The notes under the pieces: model-generated
Told to the model about the DNA's origin: nothing
What the model saw: the letters and a program-made list of their open reading frames with translations, nothing else
The model's database searches: none
Program-made: the position numbers and the translations under genes
In this document: piece by piece, positions 9,069 to 20,112 of the stretch
Layout: every line of letters starts with the position of its first letter
Position numbering within the stretch: position 1 is the stretch's first letter
NCBI GenBank assembly: GCA_014377535.1
Contig: JACMPK010000112.1
Coordinates: 1-61,902, forward strand
Source: Gemmatimonadaceae bacterium
GTDB lineage: Bacteria > Gemmatimonadota > Gemmatimonadetes > Gemmatimonadales > Gemmatimonadaceae
Direction: 5' to 3'
Length of the DNA stretch: 61,902 bases

Positions 9069-10301
9069 TCACGCCCGCGAACTCACCTCGCTTGTCGCCA
9101 TTACTGGTGACGCCAGTCTTCCGCGAAACGCACCCGCTCGCGCCGTGTTCTCCCAGTTCACCCGTGCGAGCCCGAGGTCACGATGCGTCGCCGCCAGCGA
9201 CAGGTCGAACTTCGACAGCCAGCGCCCAAGCACATCCGCCGGCAGCACGCGACCATCGGCCTCCACAACCACGCCGCTCGGTCGCTCGTCGCGCGGGCCC
9301 CACGCCAGCGTCACGCGCGCCTCGGACACGAAGCCAGTCTCCACCATTGCCACGGCGACCTGCCGAGCGCGAAGCGCACCGGCGCGATCCAATCGCCACG
9401 GGTCCTTGCCGCTCAGCGCACCACCGCCGATGCCGACGTGCGGACCGTAGAAATCCATCACCAGCTTGCGACCGGTCTGACCGTTGTCGTTGATCGGACC
9501 GCCCACGACGAAGGGGCCTGACTCGTTCACACGCACCACGAAGTCAGCCGGCGGCGGTGCGAGCAGGTCGGGCATGCGTGCCGACTCGGCGACCAGCACC
9601 TGCGTGTACAGCTCGCGCAGCGCGCGCTCCAGCTTCACCACGCTCGCCGCCACGATGTGCTGCACGCTGCTCACCACCCAGACCGGCACCCAGCGCACAA
9701 ATCTTGCACGAATGCCGGGTACCGCTCGCAACGCGATCAGCAGCTTGCCATCGGGACCCGCGCCCAGAGTGCGGTCCTCGACCGTGCGGTGCAGCAGCGC
9801 ATCGCGCAGCGTCAGCGCGAGATGCTGTTCCATCGGCAGCCAGTCCGTCTCCGGCGTGCCGATGGCATACCCCACGTGGATCGCCTGATCGTCGCAGAGC
9901 TCGCGCACGGCCTGCTCGTCAACATCCGCGACGTCGATCACGCAGGTGAGGTCCACCTCCACCTTCGACGGGTGCGGGCACTGGTAGTCCAGGCCATCAC
10001 CGACGCCGGGAAACGGCACGCCGAAGCCAGCACGCTCGTACACGCCGCGCACCGTGGCTTCCACCAGCGCGCGATCCAGCGGCGTTCCGGCCGTGCTGAT
10101 GCGACCGTTCACGTGACAGCGATGATCGTGCACTGCCACCTCCACCTGCACGATCGCGCGATCGTCCACGTGCAGCGCGAGGTCCACCAGCGCATCCGCG
10201 ACCTGGTCGGAAAGCTTGTCGGGATGACCGGGCAGCACGGCCTCGGCGAAGCGCAGGCCTGTGGATGGCAAAGCGTGCAAAACAGGAGCGATCGGCGTCA
10301 T
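9069..10301 (-). CDS. metK: divergent S-adenosylmethionine synthetase (methionine adenosyltransferase)
   Basis: 410 aa from the ATG at 10301, which overlaps the stop of the VWA gene (ATGA). Conserved MetK blocks are GHPDK (25-29), V-G-Y-A with D138-Q139 (the GAGDQG region), FVVGGPINDNGQTGRK (264-279) and GGGALSGKD (292-300). These build the ATP/methionine site and the triphosphatase site. It differs from housekeeping MetK: the GAGDQG glycines are replaced (CDDQA) and the C-terminal FGR/FPWE block is not recognisable. It is the last gene of a MoxR-unknown-VWA operon, an odd place for a housekeeping enzyme. It may make SAM for a specific partner or a related nucleotide product. Confidence 0.85.
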   Translation of the reverse strand: MTPIAPVLHALPSTGLRFAEAVLPGHPDKLSDQVADALVDLALHVDDRAIVQVEVAVHDHRCHVNGRISTAGTPLDRALVEATVRGVYERAGFGVPFPGVGDGLDYQCPHPSKVEVDLTCVIDVADVDEQAVRELCDDQAIHVGYAIGTPETDWLPMEQHLALTLRDALLHRTVEDRTLGAGPDGKLLIALRAVPGIRARFVRWVPVWVVSSVQHIVAASVVKLERALRELYTQVLVAESARMPDLLAPPPADFVVRVNESGPFVVGGPINDNGQTGRKLVMDFYGPHVGIGGGALSGKDPWRLDRAGALRARQVAVAMVETGFVSEARVTLAWGPRDERPSGVVVEADGRVLPADVLGRWLSKFDLSLAATHRDLGLARVNWENTARAGAFRGRLASPVMATSEVSSRA

Positions 10302-11776
10302 CGGGAATCCGTTGGTGAGGGAAGGCGTGTGCTGCTGTTGACCCAATCGGCAGCATCGTGCAGTGGACCATCACCGATCACGCCGAGGTGGACCTGCGTG
10401 CCACGCGCGCGAATCGGGGCGTGTGCTGAGGGGACGACATGTTCCAGGTGTCCGTCGGTCAGGACCACGACCGGCGTACCGACGGGCACCGTCGTCGCGA
10501 TGTGCCGGATCACGGCGGTGATCGAAGTACCGCCGCTGGTCGGCATGCGTCCCGTCTCCAGGTCTCCGTGTCGTGCCGGTACCACCGTGGTCGAGAACCA
10601 GTAGATGGTGGGCGTGATCTCGGCGCGCAGCGCACGCAGCGAACGACACAGGAACGGCAGCAGCGCGTTCATGCTGCCGCTCACGTCCACGTAGATCGTG
10701 ACGTCGCCGGGTCGCATCCTGCGCTCGGTGACCTGCCCTGCGAAGAGCAGTGGCGCGGGCACGCCGAGCAGACGCGCGGCATGATGACGACTCGCCGCGC
10801 GCCGGTCATGCAATCGATGCACCACGGTCACGTCGCGCGACACCCACTTCACTCGCCGCGCCGCGGTGCCGACGCCATGCACTGCGCGACGCAGCAGGAT
10901 GCGCAGTGCACGTTCCAGCGCCGGCGTGCGGTCGGCATCGCGCACGTGCAGTTGCGACAGCGCGCCACCGACACCGGGATGCTGCCCGCTCAACGCGGCG
11001 AGTTGCGACTGCAGCACGTCGGCGACCTCGGAATCGCGCGTGCCGGCCAGTGCGACCTGCTCCGCAGGCGTCACGCCGTGAGCACCGAGCAGCACGATGC
11101 CGGTCACGTCGTCTGCAGGCACGTTCGTTCGCAGCGCCTCGATGATCTCGCCGTACGTCACGCCAAGCAGTCCCGAGTCGGTGATCTCCGCGCCGTAGAG
11201 CATCCGATGGATGCGGCGGAGTTCCGCGGGCAGCGTGCGCGAGGCCGGCCAGTCCGGTGCGTCGGGCCACCCCGGTGGTGGGCGCAGGATGAACTCCGGC
11301 GCCTGATCCGAGCGGTACGTATCCATGGGCAGTGCAGCGTAGCGGTGCACCGTGGCGCCGGCCTTTTCCAGCAGCGACAGCACGGTGCGATTGACGATCG
11401 CGTCGAAGGCGATGTTGTGCAGCGCCGTGGGCCGCGGAAAGAGCCGCGTGTGGCCCAGCGTCACATGCGAGAGTTCGTGCAGCACGAGCATCGTGAGTCG
11501 CTCGGGCGTACCGCAATGCCGTGCGATGAATTGCGGATTGAGCCGCAGCCGCGGGCGCTCGCAGCAATCGATGCAGGCCGTGGCGACCTCGTCGCTCCAT
11601 TCCACGCGCGACACCGTGAGCAGCGCATCGAGCGCGCGGGTGTGCATACCGGCGGTGGACAGCACGGTGGCGAGCAGGTCGTCGATGCTCGGGAGCAGCG
11701 CGACGTTGGTGATCGTCACGGGGGCGACGTGTCTCGTGGCGAGTGTCGTGGCGTCCGTCGAGACGTGTGTCGTCAT
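10298..11776 (-). CDS. VWA-domain protein with N-terminal HExxH metallopeptidase-like domain (DUF2201 type)
   Basis: 492 aa from the ATG at 11776, which overlaps the previous gene's stop (ATGA); the longer open frame to 12031 runs through that gene. The N-terminal part has HELSHVTLGH (100-109), a zinc-peptidase HExxH with a third His. The C-terminal part is a von Willebrand A domain with a complete MIDAS: DVSGSM (364-369), T in TSGGTS (413-418) and D441 in LTDGH. This matches the DUF2201_N plus VWA-like architecture. Such proteins pair with MoxR AAA+ ATPases, as here, where VWA acts as substrate or metal adaptor. The target is unknown; it could be assembly of a metal enzyme or a stress/conflict response. 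Confidence 0.85.
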   Translation of the reverse strand: MTTHVSTDATTLATRHVAPVTITNVALLPSIDDLLATVLSTAGMHTRALDALLTVSRVEWSDEVATACIDCCERPRLRLNPQFIARHCGTPERLTMLVLHELSHVTLGHTRLFPRPTALHNIAFDAIVNRTVLSLLEKAGATVHRYAALPMDTYRSDQAPEFILRPPPGWPDAPDWPASRTLPAELRRIHRMLYGAEITDSGLLGVTYGEIIEALRTNVPADDVTGIVLLGAHGVTPAEQVALAGTRDSEVADVLQSQLAALSGQHPGVGGALSQLHVRDADRTPALERALRILLRRAVHGVGTAARRVKWVSRDVTVVHRLHDRRAASRHHAARLLGVPAPLLFAGQVTERRMRPGDVTIYVDVSGSMNALLPFLCRSLRALRAEITPTIYWFSTTVVPARHGDLETGRMPTSGGTSITAVIRHIATTVPVGTPVVVLTDGHLEHVVPSAHAPIRARGTQVHLGVIGDGPLHDAADWVNSSTRLPSPTDSR

Positions 11777-12426
11777 GCGTCGACCGGATGTCCGAAGTTG
11801 CGGACCTCGAGCCCGCCCTTGATACGGAAGAACGCGAGGGATGGCGCCCGCCGGAGCGAGAAGATCGGGGGCGACGCGTAGGCGAGCAGCGTCATGCCAT
11901 GCAACGCAATGGTCGCGGCGGTGCGCAGATCGGCTGCTGCTGACGAGCTGAGCTCCACGGCCGCCGTGTGCAAGTCCGACCAGCGCACGACGCCATTCAG
12001 TCGCGTGCCGCCGCAGATGCGTGCGGTGCACTCACGCATCTGCTCGAGGCGTTCCATGGCGAGTGCCGGATAGGCGGCACGCCAGGGGCCAAGTGCGCGG
12101 CGGCCGCCAACGATTCGCGCCAGCAGTTCGCGATCGTCCACCATGCTCGGCGCGTTCAGCGCCTTCGCTGCGAGATCGAGCGTCACGCCTGCGGCCGCGG
12201 CGACGAGGGCGGGATGCAACTGGTATTCCTGCACTGGCCCGAACATCACGGCAGGCAACTCCGGCACGCCCGCCAGGGCCAGCAGTGCGCATACCAGCGC
12301 GCGCGGCTCAATGATCGCCTGCGTTCCCACGCAGCCAGTGCGGTACACGCACGCCGACGTGGGTCCGCAGTTGTGCAGCACCGGCACATGGTCGGTGCCG
12401 GGGGTCGACATTCGGCGTGTGATCAC
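11773..12426 (-). CDS. conserved-looking protein of unknown function in MoxR/VWA operon
   Basis: About 217 aa if started at the GTG at 12426, which overlaps the MoxR stop (GTGA) as its neighbours do; ATG alternatives are at 12441 and 12411. I do not recognise the family. The N-terminal part has three Cys in the order C-x6-C-x5-C and the middle has ECTARIC, so metal or cluster binding is possible. The remainder is Ala/Leu-rich and probably helical. There is no signal peptide, so it should be cytoplasmic. Being enclosed between a MoxR ATPase and its VWA partner, it is likely an adaptor or substrate of that machine; this is inference from position. Confidence 0.75.
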   Translation of the reverse strand: MITRRMSTPGTDHVPVLHNCGPTSACVYRTGCVGTQAIIEPRALVCALLALAGVPELPAVMFGPVQEYQLHPALVAAAAGVTLDLAAKALNAPSMVDDRELLARIVGGRRALGPWRAAYPALAMERLEQMRECTARICGGTRLNGVVRWSDLHTAAVELSSSAAADLRTAATIALHGMTLLAYASPPIFSLRRAPSLAFFRIKGGLEVRNFGHPVDA

Positions 12427-13982
12427 CGGGCGTCCCGGCATTGGCCGAGCCCTGCACTGCAGACGTCACGCAGCGAGATCAGGTGCGTGATTAGATCGTG
12501 CGGCGGCAGGAGCGCAGTGCCGGTGAGTTGTCCGCGGGGTGTCGCGTGCGTCGCGATCACTCCATGCAGGAACTCCGCATCACGATCACCGAGCGTCGTC
12601 TTCGAAAGCGCCGAACGCACCGCCAGCGCCCAGGTGCGCTGCGGATGGTAGCCATTCACGCTCACGCCCATGAAGGCGATGTTGCTCACCATGCCGGCCA
12701 CCGTCTCCGTCGCTGCGAGCGATACCATCGGCTGTGCCAGCAGGTGCGGCAGCACGAACCACGCGACCGTCAGCGCATCCATCGGCGGCAGCGCCGCCAG
12801 TCCGGTGCAGAGCGCATCACCACGCGCCAGCATCGGCAGTCCCGGCAGCGTGAGCGAGAGCAGCACACGCTGCAGGGGCTCTCGCACGCCCAGCAGTGTG
12901 CGCAGCGGATCATCGTCGGCCAGCGACACCTGCTGCCACGCCCCTTCATGCGCGGCCTGCAGCATGGCGCGCGAAATGACGCGACGCACGGTGTCCGGCA
13001 CCGACGCCAGCACGGCGGCGAGACAGGCCTGTGCGTCGCCGGGCATGCCCAGTGCCAGGTGCGCTGCGCGCATCGCGACGACGTTGCGGAAGAGCGTCGC
13101 CGCGCGACGGCCTCCGATGGCGATACCCGCGGCACCAAGCTTCGACACCAGAACGTCCACGTACGTCGCGATCTCGGCCGACGCGCTGGCGCGGACGCCC
13201 GGGATGAGCGCGCGCGCGGCACTCACCAGCTCGCGCACGGTGGCGTGTGCGCCGTCGGCCGGCTGCTCGCCCACGCCGCTGATGATCGCGCGCCGATCGG
13301 CGTCACCGAAGTCGCCGAAATGCGGCAGCGTCACGATCCACGAGAAGCGGTCGGCAAGCGCGGGATCGAGCGTCTCCACCGCGTCGTAGGCGAACCGCGA
13401 GGTGGCGTCATGCGCATCGACCGGCGGGTTGGTCGCCGCCCAGCGATGCCGCAGCTTTGCGATCGACACGCCCTGGATGCGACGCTCGTGGATGATCGGG
13501 AACAGCTTGTTCGCGACGTCGGGGCGGCAGCGACCGATCTCGTCGAAGAAGGCGACTTCGGCGTCCCAGATCGCCCCGGGCGGCGCCGCGTAGCGGATGA
13601 TGCCCTGCTCGTCGGGGATCGGGAAGCCGGCGAGGTCGTCGAACTGCAGGAGGCTCGCGTTGTAGTGACGCAGCTCGAGGCCGAGTGCCTCCGCGAGGCG
13701 CAGCAGGAGCAGCGTCTTCGCCGCGCCATGCTCGCTGACCAGCAGCAGCGGCTCCTCCGTCGCGAGCGCGGCGAGGATGGCCGGCTCGATGGCGTCATAG
13801 CCGACGATGCCAAGTGGCCGGAGGAGCGAGCGCCGGGTGGTGCTGGCGTGCGACGCGGGAGTGGTGTGCGCCTGTACAGGCACGGGTGGCTGTGGCGGCG
13901 CCGCCTTGGCCGCGGGTGCGGCAGATGCGGCGGTGCGAGCGTGGCGTGCGGTGGCGCGCGTACGCGCCAAGGTCGTTCCCAT
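12423..13982 (-). CDS. MoxR-family AAA+ ATPase
   Basis: 519 aa from the ATG at 13982, chosen because GGAGG lies seven bases upstream; the open frame extends to 14039. After an Ala/Pro-rich N-terminal tail (1-50) comes the AAA+ core: Walker A SEHGAAKT (83-90), Walker B VAFFDEI (143-149) and sensor-1 AATNP (182-186). The C-terminal half is long (about 250 residues) and lacks a known domain. MoxR ATPases act as chaperones that remodel or activate partner proteins together with a VWA protein. It is first in a four-gene operon with overlapping ends, which predicts equal expression and a shared complex. Confidence 0.88.
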   Translation of the reverse strand: MGTTLARTRATARHARTAASAAPAAKAAPPQPPVPVQAHTTPASHASTTRRSLLRPLGIVGYDAIEPAILAALATEEPLLLVSEHGAAKTLLLLRLAEALGLELRHYNASLLQFDDLAGFPIPDEQGIIRYAAPPGAIWDAEVAFFDEIGRCRPDVANKLFPIIHERRIQGVSIAKLRHRWAATNPPVDAHDATSRFAYDAVETLDPALADRFSWIVTLPHFGDFGDADRRAIISGVGEQPADGAHATVRELVSAARALIPGVRASASAEIATYVDVLVSKLGAAGIAIGGRRAATLFRNVVAMRAAHLALGMPGDAQACLAAVLASVPDTVRRVISRAMLQAAHEGAWQQVSLADDDPLRTLLGVREPLQRVLLSLTLPGLPMLARGDALCTGLAALPPMDALTVAWFVLPHLLAQPMVSLAATETVAGMVSNIAFMGVSVNGYHPQRTWALAVRSALSKTTLGDRDAEFLHGVIATHATPRGQLTGTALLPPHDLITHLISLRDVCSAGLGQCRDAR

Positions 13983-14423
13983 CTGCCTGCCTCCGCGCCA
14001 CTTGGCGCAGAAGGTGATGCACCGATGGCCTCGGCGCATTCGTGGTCCGCTTTAGTGGTCGTGTTTAGCGTCGCGCCACAAGCTGGCCGGTCAAATCGCG
14101 ACGGAGTGCGACTGCAGGACTGCGACTACGGGTGCAGGATACGAAAACGCCCGGCGAGCGATGACCGCTCCCGGGCGTGATGCAGGCTGGGCGGCGGTTT
14201 AGCTGTATTTGTTGCGCGGCCAGCAATCGCGAGAAATCGCCGCGTCGTACACCGCAGAGAGTAGCAGCGTGTCGATCGGTCACGCAAGGGCGGCAACGCC
14301 GTGTCGTGCATCATGTCGCGCATGGACGCTCCGGACGCGATCACAGGCGTCGGGGGTATCACAGCGGCGCTCGCCCCGTCGACGTATCTCGGGTACGCTG
14401 CAGTCGGCCCTCACTCCTGCGTC
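13983..14423. other. intergenic region between divergent MoxR operon and DUF305 gene
   Basis: This 441-base gap should hold promoters for both directions. It contains one strong hairpin (listed separately). On the minus strand, TTGCGT and TACTCT lie about 18 bases apart upstream of that hairpin, so a small minus-strand RNA of roughly 100-120 bases is possible. No convincing coding frame was found. Confidence 0.4.
14144..14178 (-). terminator. putative rho-independent terminator upstream of the MoxR operon
   Basis: CGCCCGG/CCGGGCG with an inner GAGCG/CGCTC helix (one bulged C) and an ATGAC-type loop. On the minus strand it is followed by TTTT. No minus-strand gene ends just before it, so it would end a short transcript, perhaps a small RNA or a leader in front of the MoxR operon. 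Confidence 0.5.
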
Positions 14424-16968: not shown

Positions 16969-19900
16969 CTATATCTCGCGAATCACACTAAACGCGCGGA
17001 AAGCACGGGCTGGCAGTTTTGTGTCCAGCGTCCACGTAATACTTATCGGCTTCCCGCCTGACACATCATCAGCCGACGTCAGTGAAACACTGCCACATGA
17101 GAAAAACGCACGTTCAATTGTTTCACGGACGAAAAGCAGAAATCGCCATCCGTTGTCAGCGCTTTCGAGATAGCGTCGCCCCGCCGCGGTCTTTGGGCCC
17201 GCACCATTTTGCGTCTGCCAATGGAATCTCGACGGGCTGACGGCATAGTCGTGATAGGCGATGCGATCGTGGAAACCGTCTGACTTGTCAAGTGTCACGA
17301 GAAGCAGCTGAAGCTTCTGTTCTTTGGACGTCACAACGCCTTCACGTGACGCAGGACGAGACGTTGCACTGTGAAATCCAGTCGCCGTTAGAAGCTCCCG
17401 ACGGCTGTATCGCGCGTGCAAGAGCAGTGGCAGATGCGTGAACCCCGGAAGTTCGCGCGCCGAAACGCGACTCCGCGCCTCAAGTACGCTGGACAATTCG
17501 CACAGTTCACCCGCGACATCTGCGTGATGCACGAGTTGCGCGAGCAATACCTCGTAGGACGCCACCGTTTTCGCCTCGAGCTGGTGGGCGAGCATCTGCA
17601 CTCGCGTCGCGTCGCGAACATCCCGGGGCGTGTAGTGCCCGCCGCTCTCCGCGACACGCTGCATCAATCCGATCTGCTGCGGATCGTCTGTATGCAGCAG
17701 TAGTCGAAGCCCCCGTGAAAGCGCCGCCTCGCCCTCACGCTCACCCGCGGCAGGCAATACGCCGGCATCGCGGCGCAGGGGCGTCCAGCCTGCCCGCCCG
17801 GCATCTCGATAAATGTCCGCGAGCTCAACTTCGTATTCTTCGAGGAAACGTCCGAGTGCGACGCCTCCTACTGGCCGAAGGCCACCGTACGAGGCGAGCT
17901 CGGCTCGCAACGTCTTCCAAGTTTGAGCGGCAACGCTGCGAAGGTTGGCGAGAATCTGTGAGCGTGCCTGAGGCTCAAGGTGGATATGGCAGCCGCTCGG
18001 CAGTGTACTGAAGCCGTCCGCGACGCCACGCTCGACCTCCTTGCGCGTCAGACCAGTGATCGATGAGAGCAAACGGTCAAAGCGAAAGTCGGCACGGTGC
18101 CTCCCGACGAAGTCGAGCACCAGACAGCTCGTCTTCCCCTCGTGTAAGCGAAGACCACGGCCAAGCTGTTGCTGGAAGACGAGCGGGCTCTGCGTAGGGC
18201 GGAGGAACAGCAGCGTGTCCGCTGCGGGGATATCAATGCCTTCGTTGTAGAGATCCACGGTCACGATGCCACAAATTTTCCCGCTCGCAAGATCGGCAGG
18301 TGCCCGCCGGCGCTCTTCCAAGGAAGACTCGCCGCAAACCATCGCGACCGGAATTCCGGCTTTCGTGAACTGCTCTGTCATGAAGCGCGCGTGCTTTACC
18401 GAGACACAGAAGATCAAAGCTTTCGAGTTGCTGATGCCACCCGACAGCCGCTCCCATTCGTTTCGAACCATTCGAGCACGGACCTGATTTCCGGACACGA
18501 GACGGTCAATGGCCTCACGTTCGCCCGGCAGATTCCAAGGCACATCGCTGAAGTCCGTTTCATCGTTACAACCGAAGTACTCGAACGGCGCCAACAGCTG
18601 CAGATCGAGAGCCTGCCAGAGGCGCAGCTCAGCCGCTGGCGAGCCGTCGGGGCGCATGTCGAAGTACGGCGCCAACGGCTTGCCATCGAAGCGTTCTGGA
18701 GTTGCTGTCAGTCCGAGCAGGTGGCGCGGTGCGATAGTGCGCGCGAACTCGTCGAGCTGCGAGGCTGCGAGGTGGTGGCACTCATCGATAACGACCGTGT
18801 GCCAATAATCAGCCCCACACCGTTCCACGATTCCCTGCGATGTCAGGCTTTGGATGCTGGCAAAAAGATGGTCGTGTCTTGCGGGCTTGCTGTCACCGGC
18901 CAGAACCTCACCGAAGCTCGCGTCGCGCAACACTGCACGATACGTCGCAAGCGCCTGCCTAAGTATCTCCATACGGTGCGCAACGAAGAGCAGACGCGGT
19001 GGCGACCCGAAACTGGCTGCTGTCCGCCGGTAGTCGAGCGCCGCCATGACCGTTTTCCCGGTACCGGTCGCGGCCACCAGCAGGTTTCGCATACGACCAT
19101 GATCACGTTCGAACTGAAGCTGCTCCAGGATGTCAGACTGATACTGCTTTGCCGTAATGTCGAAGTAGACCGTCGGCTCGACTGCGCCACTCGAACTCTC
19201 CTTGCGCAGCGCTGCCCTGAGGGCCAGCACCGCCATCTCATCGTCCGGGTGATACGGAACGAACTCACCATCTTGCCAGAGTGACTCGAAGTGAGCCTGT
19301 GCGCGATTGAACAGCACCGCTTGGCCCCGCTCCGTCAGTTTAACGGTCCATTCAAGACCGCCCAGCAATGCGGCACCTGACAAGTTTGCGCTGCCGATGT
19401 ACGCAGAGCCGAATCCGGTCATACGGCGGAACATCCATGCCTTGGCGTGCAGTCGGGTGCGCCTTCCGTCCAGCGAGACCTTGACGATGCAACCATTTAA
19501 ACGAGCCAGCATGTCAAGGGCGTTCTGTTCTGTGGCACCGGTGTACGTCGTGGTGAGAACACGAATGCGTGTCTGCCCCTTACCGCTGGCGTCTGCCGCT
19601 GTCACGTGGCGCAGCACATCCATCAGCTTTCGCACACCGGAGACCGTGATGAAGCTCACCAGAATGTCAATCTGATCGCACGCTGTTGACTCTCGCCGGA
19701 TCTCTTCCAGCAGAGTCGGCGAACCTTTGGCTGCGGTGAAAAGCCAAGGCGCAGCCAAGCCAGTCTCCGGCAGTTGTGCTGCCTCGGTGCCGCTATACCC
19801 GATCGCACGCAAGCGACGAAGCGGTAGCTGCGGCATCTCCTGTATCGGAGTCGACAGCACAAGGTTCGACGCATGCCGTATCTCACGCAACAGGTGCGCG

Positions 19901-20112
19901 ATGAGCTTCGCCTGCCGGACGAGTGATTCCTTGTCGTCACTCCCAATCGACTCGAGCACGTCCCCAAGAAGTCGAGCGACCAGATCGAGGAGGTGCAGTG
20001 ACGACTGAGAACCTTGCAGTTCATCAACTTTCGCCTGCACGCCCTCAGCTGTGATGCGCTCCTGTAGTCCAACGGTCAGCAGCTGATCGTAAAGCCCACG
20101 AGGCAGTGTCAT
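16969..20112 (-). CDS. PLD-like nuclease / DEAD-box helicase / DUF3427 protein
   Basis: 1047 aa. An N-terminal helical part is followed by a phospholipase-D-like module (about 120-285) with HAK (222-224) and GSANLSGAAL. Then comes a superfamily-II helicase core: Walker A ATGTGKT (348-354), DECH (443-446), LTATP and the C-terminal QQLGRGLR. The last 350 residues match DUF3427. This arrangement is known from defence islands and acts on DNA or RNA in the cytoplasm. It lies 35 bases after a DUF3883 gene on the same strand. Base use is visibly less GC-rich than the flanks, suggesting acquisition. An HKD phosphodiesterase motif is partial (HAK without a clear D), so nuclease activity is uncertain. 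Confidence 0.9.
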   Translation of the reverse strand: MTLPRGLYDQLLTVGLQERITAEGVQAKVDELQGSQSSLHLLDLVARLLGDVLESIGSDDKESLVRQAKLIAHLLREIRHASNLVLSTPIQEMPQLPLRRLRAIGYSGTEAAQLPETGLAAPWLFTAAKGSPTLLEEIRRESTACDQIDILVSFITVSGVRKLMDVLRHVTAADASGKGQTRIRVLTTTYTGATEQNALDMLARLNGCIVKVSLDGRRTRLHAKAWMFRRMTGFGSAYIGSANLSGAALLGGLEWTVKLTERGQAVLFNRAQAHFESLWQDGEFVPYHPDDEMAVLALRAALRKESSSGAVEPTVYFDITAKQYQSDILEQLQFERDHGRMRNLLVAATGTGKTVMAALDYRRTAASFGSPPRLLFVAHRMEILRQALATYRAVLRDASFGEVLAGDSKPARHDHLFASIQSLTSQGIVERCGADYWHTVVIDECHHLAASQLDEFARTIAPRHLLGLTATPERFDGKPLAPYFDMRPDGSPAAELRLWQALDLQLLAPFEYFGCNDETDFSDVPWNLPGEREAIDRLVSGNQVRARMVRNEWERLSGGISNSKALIFCVSVKHARFMTEQFTKAGIPVAMVCGESSLEERRRAPADLASGKICGIVTVDLYNEGIDIPAADTLLFLRPTQSPLVFQQQLGRGLRLHEGKTSCLVLDFVGRHRADFRFDRLLSSITGLTRKEVERGVADGFSTLPSGCHIHLEPQARSQILANLRSVAAQTWKTLRAELASYGGLRPVGGVALGRFLEEYEVELADIYRDAGRAGWTPLRRDAGVLPAAGEREGEAALSRGLRLLLHTDDPQQIGLMQRVAESGGHYTPRDVRDATRVQMLAHQLEAKTVASYEVLLAQLVHHADVAGELCELSSVLEARSRVSARELPGFTHLPLLLHARYSRRELLTATGFHSATSRPASREGVVTSKEQKLQLLLVTLDKSDGFHDRIAYHDYAVSPSRFHWQTQNGAGPKTAAGRRYLESADNGWRFLLFVRETIERAFFSCGSVSLTSADDVSGGKPISITWTLDTKLPARAFRAFSVIREI

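Follow-up and report, generated by a model that had tools for sequence, protein, structure and literature searches.

A tandem SAM-II riboswitch leader precedes a MoxR–VWA operon with a divergent S-adenosylmethionine synthetase in Gemmatimonadota

Introduction

The central donor of methyl groups in the cell is S-adenosylmethionine (SAM). The methionine adenosyltransferases (MATs), or SAM synthetases, are regarded as a single conserved enzyme that uses a single acceptor. Twelve catalytic MAT residues are conserved across 2963 sequences (PMC7271947). In Escherichia coli numbering, the carboxyl group of methionine is held by Gln98 and Lys269, and its amino group by Asp238 and Glu55 (PMC3853416). 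In the NorQ/NorD, CbbQ/CbbO, RavA/ViaA and CoxD/CoxE systems, a MoxR-family AAA+ ATPase has a von Willebrand factor type A (VWA) cofactor and is encoded with or near a client enzyme. SAM riboswitches have been described in tandem as SAM-II/SAM-V, SAM-II/SAM-II and SAM-I/IV–SAM-II pairs (PMC9481103). Here we analyze a stretch of 61,902 nucleotides, hereafter the window, from contig C20 of a Gemmatimonadota draft genome, in which a MoxR ATPase, a protein termed X, an HExxH–VWA protein and a MetK-like protein are encoded in one operon behind two SAM-II aptamers. The data point to a SAM-riboswitch cassette that moves as a unit and encodes apparently competent enzymes, with a rebuilt methionine pocket in the MetK-like protein.

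Results

Four overlapping open reading frames (ORFs), all on the minus strand, occupy positions 9069–13982. The functional unit reaches upstream past the MoxR start into the tandem riboswitch leader, to about 14253. From 5′ to 3′, its features are as follows.

14178..14253, minus strand: first SAM-II aptamer of the tandem leader (custom covariance model)
14144..14177, minus strand: intrinsic terminator-like hairpin and T run between the aptamers, predicted transcriptional expression platform (sequence)
14031..14112, minus strand: second SAM-II riboswitch aptamer, RF00521 (Rfam)
13990..14010, minus strand: hairpin over the MoxR GGAGG ribosome-binding site, predicted translational expression platform (sequence, minimum-free-energy fold)
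12423..13982, minus strand: MoxR-family AAA+ ATPase, 519 aa (AAA_5 and kept motifs)
11773..12426, minus strand: protein X, about 217 aa, no known domain, fast-evolving (same place in every locus)
10298..11776, minus strand: HExxH (DUF2201_N zincin-like) and VWA protein, 492 aa (PF13203, VWA_CoxE)
9069..10301, minus strand: divergent SAM synthetase (MAT-like), 410 aa (Pfam N and C domains)

The start of protein X is best read as a GTG overlapping the MoxR stop codon (GTGA), with an alternative ATG at 12441. The HExxH–VWA start overlaps the preceding gene by ATGA, and so does the MetK-like start; a mechanical call that extends the MetK-like ORF to 10346 is too long, and the start at 10301 is preferred. 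A preliminary description of this DNA had read the four genes as one overlapping unit and had named MoxR, HExxH–VWA and MetK among them; the overlaps and the domain searches bear out both points. Its label of Cys protein for X has to be dropped, for the cysteines are not conserved.

Analysis of the leader revealed two SAM-II aptamers. The second matches RF00521 (SAM-II, SAM_alpha) at 44.9 bits against a gathering score of 36 (E = 7e-7 for the whole window); it is the sole Rfam match in the 62-kb window, and its 3′ end lies 48 nt from the MoxR start codon. The first is not reported by Rfam alone at the gathering score, and was found at 33.4 bits (E = 4.5e-8) with a covariance model trained on SAM-II RNAs of the phylum, the downstream aptamers of the operons among them. 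It has a P1 stem of CGCGGC/GCCGCG and a putative GCUG/CAGC pseudoknot. Loop and 3′ tail segments that could form the pseudoknot are complementary, and the first aptamers and the aptamer of genome G301 use different letters for them (GCUG/CAGC, GCGG/CCGC). Between the aptamers of the window lies a GC hairpin followed by a T run (CGCCCGGGAGCG..CGCTCGCCGGGCGTTTT), which a terminator scan found as well. An equivalent element is present in the leaders of loci L049, L050 and L051, and a hairpin similar to that over the MoxR ribosome-binding site in L003, L006, L051 and L124. With the custom model, tandem SAM-II aptamers were also detected in the four orthologues with enough leader (L003, L006, L051 and L145). 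A scan for sigma-70-like promoters found none.

The MoxR–X–VWA–MetK order is intact in genomes G269, G351, G289, G302, G057, G315 and G301, and the loci cut by contig ends (L005, G071, G219, G408 and G286) hold the expected part of the operon. Given that the order recurs in loci whose MetK identity ranges only from 76% down to about 33%, it cannot be put down to chance. The preliminary description had allowed that the four genes might prove not to be conserved together; their order is the same wherever a related locus extends far enough.

Furthermore, a SAM-riboswitch signal was found in 12 of 12 available leaders, 8 of them above the Rfam cut-off and 4 weaker; G057/G315 and some of the SAM-II loci are closely related, and the 12 leaders are thus not 12 independent events. 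The riboswitch class differs between lineages. SAM-II exceeds the cut-off in the window, G269, G289, G351 and G408, and SAM-I/IV in G057 and G315, with two aptamers each, and in one IMG/VR contig (L125), where a single SAM-I/IV of 74 bits is accompanied by a weak SAM-V-like element (E = 0.54) immediately 5′ of MoxR. Among the weaker signals, the SAM-II of G219 reaches 35.1 bits against the cut-off of 36 at a contig edge. G286 and G302 give S-box-like SAM-I matches of 29.0 and 28.5 bits (E = 0.006–0.008), and G301 a SAM-II match of 25.5 bits (E = 0.03), in which the GGAG ribosome-binding site falls within the 3′ side; these three, all below the cut-off, have the right position and strand.

As a control, 68 kb around MoxR–DUF2201 genes without MetK gave no Rfam match. 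No SAM riboswitch was detected in the canonical metK region of the genome that holds the window. The other SAM-II sites of the genome precede metZ and an ATP-grasp/SfnG-like/major facilitator superfamily (MFS) operon, and these targets are a methionine/organosulfur regulon. Locus L144 (G000, contig C18, 16431–19954) has a SAM-II followed by genes for an ATP-grasp protein, a luciferase-type monooxygenase resembling SfnG, and a transporter of the MFS; it has the look of an organosulfur operon, so far uncharacterised, that SAM represses. Elsewhere, G357, G362 and G200 (L042, L043 and L044) encode a second MetK with intact catalytic residues and a longer gating-loop region, each with its own SAM-II.

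The MetK-like protein exceeds the Pfam cut-offs of S-AdoMet_synt_C (4e-25; 88.7 bits versus 25) and S-AdoMet_synt_N (9e-13; 49 versus 33.1), and has a weak match to the central domain M, of 13.2 bits versus a cut-off of 29. On the metK equivalog model TIGR01034 it scores 150.5 bits against 309.4, about half of the cut-off. A canonical metK is encoded on a separate contig of the same genome (C163), and the genomes with an operon MetK generally give a second, canonical-type match. A tree places the ten operon MetKs in a single clade (100/100) that excludes all 22 canonical-type copies, among them that of E. coli; given very long branches, the depth of the clade is uncertain. Thus, the suspicion that this metK is a divergent second copy without a housekeeping phylogeny held up on both counts. 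No MetK of the operon clade was found outside the operon in the Gemmatimonadota genomes searched.

Sequence comparison revealed that the operon MetKs retain nine of the 12 catalytic residues and that the replaced ones are exactly E55, Q98 and K269, all intact in the 22 canonical-type copies. Position 55 is R in nine of the ten operon MetKs and G in one, position 98 is D in nine and L in one, and position 269 is R or S, replaced in all nine readable copies. The column of Q98 lies beside a shortened gating loop, and its alignment is less certain than those of E55 and K269; an alternative alignment from phmmer, pairing YQCP with EQSP, was rejected, as that Q is missing from the G057, G315 and G301 copies. 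H14, D16, K17, E42, D163, K165, D238, K245 and K265 are present in every operon copy that reaches them. The ATP/triphosphate residues, D271 included, are likewise kept in all reaching copies, with R244 changed to K in two. The adenine-stacking F230 (L in G301) and the ribose-binding D163 are retained too, and the canonical gating-loop motif QSPDIxxG is absent. Overall, MetK is the most conserved of the four operon proteins. Its AlphaFold model has a mean predicted local distance difference test score (pLDDT) of 56 and finds only MATs among the top Foldseek matches, with low TM-scores; residue geometry was not taken from it.

With E replaced by R and Q by D, the charges are exchanged, and the acceptor could be bound in reverse or be a different one. 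In the window MetK the near-invariant R67 and D123 occupy the E55 and Q98 sites; one speculative reading is an acceptor with amino and carboxyl groups swapped, such as D-methionine. Since the standard methionine contacts are lost, the protein may not make ordinary SAM. SAM may nevertheless be its product, because archaeal MATs without these residues still make SAM, binding methionine through other contacts (PMC3853416).

MoxR matches AAA_5 (Pfam, 4e-7). Its Walker A (GAAKT), Walker B (FFDEI), sensor N185 and LADRF arginine are conserved across the relatives, and the subfamily carries the motif HYNASLxxFDDLxGFP. The match to the RavA equivalog model (NF010054) is only 12.8 bits versus 681, and that to the bpMoxR model 17.3 bits versus a cut-off of 27. 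The VWA protein exceeds the Pfam cut-off of DUF2201_N (PF13203; 4.5e-6, 26.9 bits versus 23.2), and lies slightly under that of VWA_CoxE (1e-5). Its H100, E101, H104 and H109, together with D364/S366/S368/D441 of the metal-ion-dependent adhesion site (MIDAS), are unchanged in 10 relatives. Intact Walker A and B motifs thus adjoin a VWA gene with an intact MIDAS, as in a MoxR–VWA chaperone pair. Both proteins appear to be active, given the invariance of the ATPase, MIDAS and HExxH...H motifs among the relatives. Protein X has no match in Pfam, NCBIfam or PADLOC and no Protein Data Bank profile match, and its AlphaFold model is too poor for use (pLDDT 43). Its conserved parts are L(H/N)NSG at the N terminus and SPPIxLxxRxPSL at the C terminus, the latter in most relatives. 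Of the four proteins it is the most variable by a wide margin, with 26–35% identity where MetK shows 74–76%. PADLOC gave no match to any of the four operon proteins.

The operon MoxR subfamily occurs in 10 of 395 genomes of Gemmatimonadota, the phylum to which the genome search was confined and for which most genomes are fragmented drafts; these are 10 of the 179 genomes of the family. Within these genomes it is found only together with the operon. Around DUF2201/MoxR genes of the ordinary kind in other parts of the phylum, the DNA examined, which includes several short contigs, holds no MetK. The flanking genes vary from locus to locus, and no defense island surrounds the relatives examined. 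In G135, of the same genus, an empty site is seen: the genes that flank the cassette are separated by about 0.67 kb there and by 5.4 kb in the window. As these flanks are direct neighbors in G135, the genes of the cassette and their riboswitch leader arrived or disappeared in one piece. No terminal repeats of at least 9 bases flank it.

Plasmid carriage was considered and rejected, the plasmid collection giving no match for MoxR at 1e-10 or for VWA at 1e-4. A viral origin was rejected as well: the phage and viral MetKs recovered are ordinary ones, and the lone relative on a viral contig (L056/L125; IMGVR_UViG_3300033064_006711) is probably host DNA beside a prophage. On this contig the MoxR–X–VWA operon is preceded by a SAM-I/IV riboswitch, two small unknown ORFs separate the riboswitch from MoxR, and the VWA gene enters phage-like DNA after about residue 325 (near 4240 in L056), reflecting either a prophage inside the gene or an assembly join. 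Two IMG/VR jumbo-phage contigs (L057 and L058; 332,730 and 111,968 bases) carry a MoxR and HExxH–VWA pair, with MoxR 31–39% identical to those of the operon loci; the 13 kb examined contain no MetK match. Among the bacterial loci, MoxR of G351 (L004/L051) has a frame change and is missing residues 139–293, through assembly error or real decay. In G315 (L041, 871–1824), the MetK-like gene shares 99% identity with its G057 counterpart as far as about residue 288; beyond this point it is frameshifted, and it is the shorter of the two. A TGA is flagged within the MoxR match of the locus. In the window itself, positions 16969–20112 encode a large ResIII/DEAD helicase with phospholipase D-like and DUF3427 domains, whose G+C content at third codon positions is 0.66 versus 0.81–0.88 in its neighbors; it is possibly acquired and defense-related.

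Discussion

We propose, with a probability of about 0.5, that the cassette is a laterally moving auxiliary adenosyltransferase module that is induced at low SAM and has its own AAA+ remodeler. When SAM is plentiful, the first aptamer would terminate transcription and the second would hide the ribosome-binding site. A drop in SAM would open both locks, so that the whole operon is expressed. The MAT-like enzyme would then join a thioether and ATP into a sulfonium nucleoside. This may be a close analogue of SAM or, with roughly even chances, SAM itself, made through a non-standard methionine pocket. MoxR, X and the VWA–zincin protein would form a dedicated activator or quality-control machine for this enzyme, with X in an adaptor-like role. 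The activator role is suggested by analogy with NorQD, CbbQO and CoxDE, which serve the enzymes encoded alongside them. Because no SAM riboswitch was detected at the housekeeping metK, the module would be a reserve rather than a replacement. The preliminary description had envisaged an AAA+ machine that uses SAM or a SAM-like nucleotide as cofactor, substrate or signal. Of this, the link to SAM stands, owing to the riboswitches 5′ of the operon; the use of the nucleotide by the machine would be conjecture, and the riboswitches point rather to an operon made when SAM is scarce.

Several points weigh against this proposal. The action of MoxR and VWA on the MAT-like enzyme is drawn from analogy. 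Judging from the replaced residues, this enzyme is unlikely to make ordinary SAM in the standard way. Several leaders score under the Rfam cut-off, the fast evolution of X and the patchy distribution would suit a conflict system equally well, and the evidence is entirely computational and drawn mostly from fragmented drafts.

The last but one of these points leads to the main rival, an anti-phage conflict module with SAM depletion as the alarm, which we regard as unlikely. Phage SAM lyases or heavy methylation would lower SAM and open the riboswitches, upon which the MoxR–VWA and metallopeptidase effector would act and the MAT-like enzyme would consume ATP or make a toxic or signaling adenosyl compound. 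A layout of MoxR, a vWA-peptidase fusion and a fast-evolving third component has indeed been described (PMC7159879; PMC12839542), and phage SAM-degrading enzymes, a possible trigger, are known (PMC7877911). X is far the least conserved protein, presence is patchy with an empty site, and a double riboswitch lock fits a costly or harmful product. However, the four proteins have no PADLOC match, bpMoxR falls at 17 bits versus 27, neither an iSTAND nor a VMAP sensor is recognised in X, and no defense island lies near the relatives examined. Moreover, SAM riboswitches otherwise govern methionine and SAM supply. Similarly doubtful is an adenosyltransferase for another thioether, such as 3-methylthiopropionate, 4-methylthio-2-oxobutyrate, dimethyl sulfide or D-methionine, serving organosulfur salvage at low SAM. 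The sole changes among the 12 catalytic residues do fall on the residues that hold the amino and carboxyl groups of methionine (PMC3853416, PMC7271947), their replacements are consistent within the clade (R in 9/10 at 55, D in 9/10 at 98), which suggests a new specificity rather than decay, and another SAM-II operon of the genome has an SfnG-like (dimethylsulfone) monooxygenase. Yet no gene for a substrate or downstream pathway is linked to the cassette, the flanks differ at every locus, and the archaeal precedent shows that SAM can be made without these residues.

That the MetK-like protein is no enzyme, only a structural or SAM/ATP-sensing subunit of the MoxR–VWA machine, would agree with its weak central-domain match and the loss of QSPDIxxG. 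We consider this quite improbable, in view of the nine residues from H14 to K265 that every copy reaching them retains, an R or K at 244, and the highest conservation among the four proteins. A plain extra metK for ordinary SAM, with its neighbors as unrelated passengers, deserves hardly any credence. SAM-riboswitch control is shared by other second metK copies in the phylum, but the gene order conserved over deep divergence largely refutes this explanation; besides, no MetK of the clade was found outside the operon, and the methionine-binding triad is lost. 

At somewhat less than even odds, the operon MetKs might represent a new MAT-fold adenosyltransferase subfamily, which would attach the adenosine of ATP to some acceptor that is not L-methionine, be run by a dedicated AAA+/VWA/zincin machine and be switched on only when SAM runs out, for salvage to a SAM-like sulfonium or for a defense triggered by SAM depletion.

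If our proposal of a low-SAM-induced adenosyltransferase module is true, a diverged, self-contained MAT clade with its own AAA+ machine would amount either to a back-up system for SAM or to an adenosyl chemistry that is new. The riboswitches offer an independent handle on function, one missing from most unknown MoxR–VWA operons.

Comparison with known systems

Like NorQ/NorD, CbbQ/CbbO, RavA/ViaA and CoxD/CoxE, the present operon combines a MoxR ATPase and a VWA protein of intact MIDAS with an enzyme; unlike them, it adds a zincin-like domain, protein X, a MAT-fold partner and SAM-riboswitch control, and its MoxR has no RavA equivalog match. It shares MoxR, a vWA-peptidase fusion and a rapidly evolving third protein with the MoxR–vWA conflict systems (Kaur et al. 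2020, PMC7159879; iSTAND type, PMC12839542), whereas its third protein is unrecognised, and a term search of those papers found neither a MAT-like component nor SAM riboswitches. An N-terminal metallopeptidase–vWA protein adjoining MoxR is also seen in the group 2.2 jumbo-phage pair (PMC7824862) and the cellular DUF2201/MoxR pairs, but the examples examined are without MetK, protein X or a SAM riboswitch. Compared with bacterial MetK (TIGR01034), the operon copy is a three-domain MAT homologue with 9/12 catalytic residues and the ATP and triphosphate site, and differs in its separate clade, the replacement of E55/Q98/K269 and a score of half the curated cut-off. The leader resembles the tandem bi-mechanism SAM riboswitches (PMC9481103), with a terminator after the first of two aptamers and the second near the ribosome-binding site; it differs in serving a Gemmatimonadota MoxR–VWA–MetK operon, MoxR and von Willebrand proteins having no mention in that paper. 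The literature search, with most subscription papers outside its reach, gave nothing that joins MoxR–VWA to a SAM synthetase or a SAM riboswitch, in keeping with the earlier suggestion of an undescribed combination. Taken together, the parts are of known kinds, while their combination, their regulation and the MAT clade appear to be new; the enzyme stands a fair chance of being categorically new.

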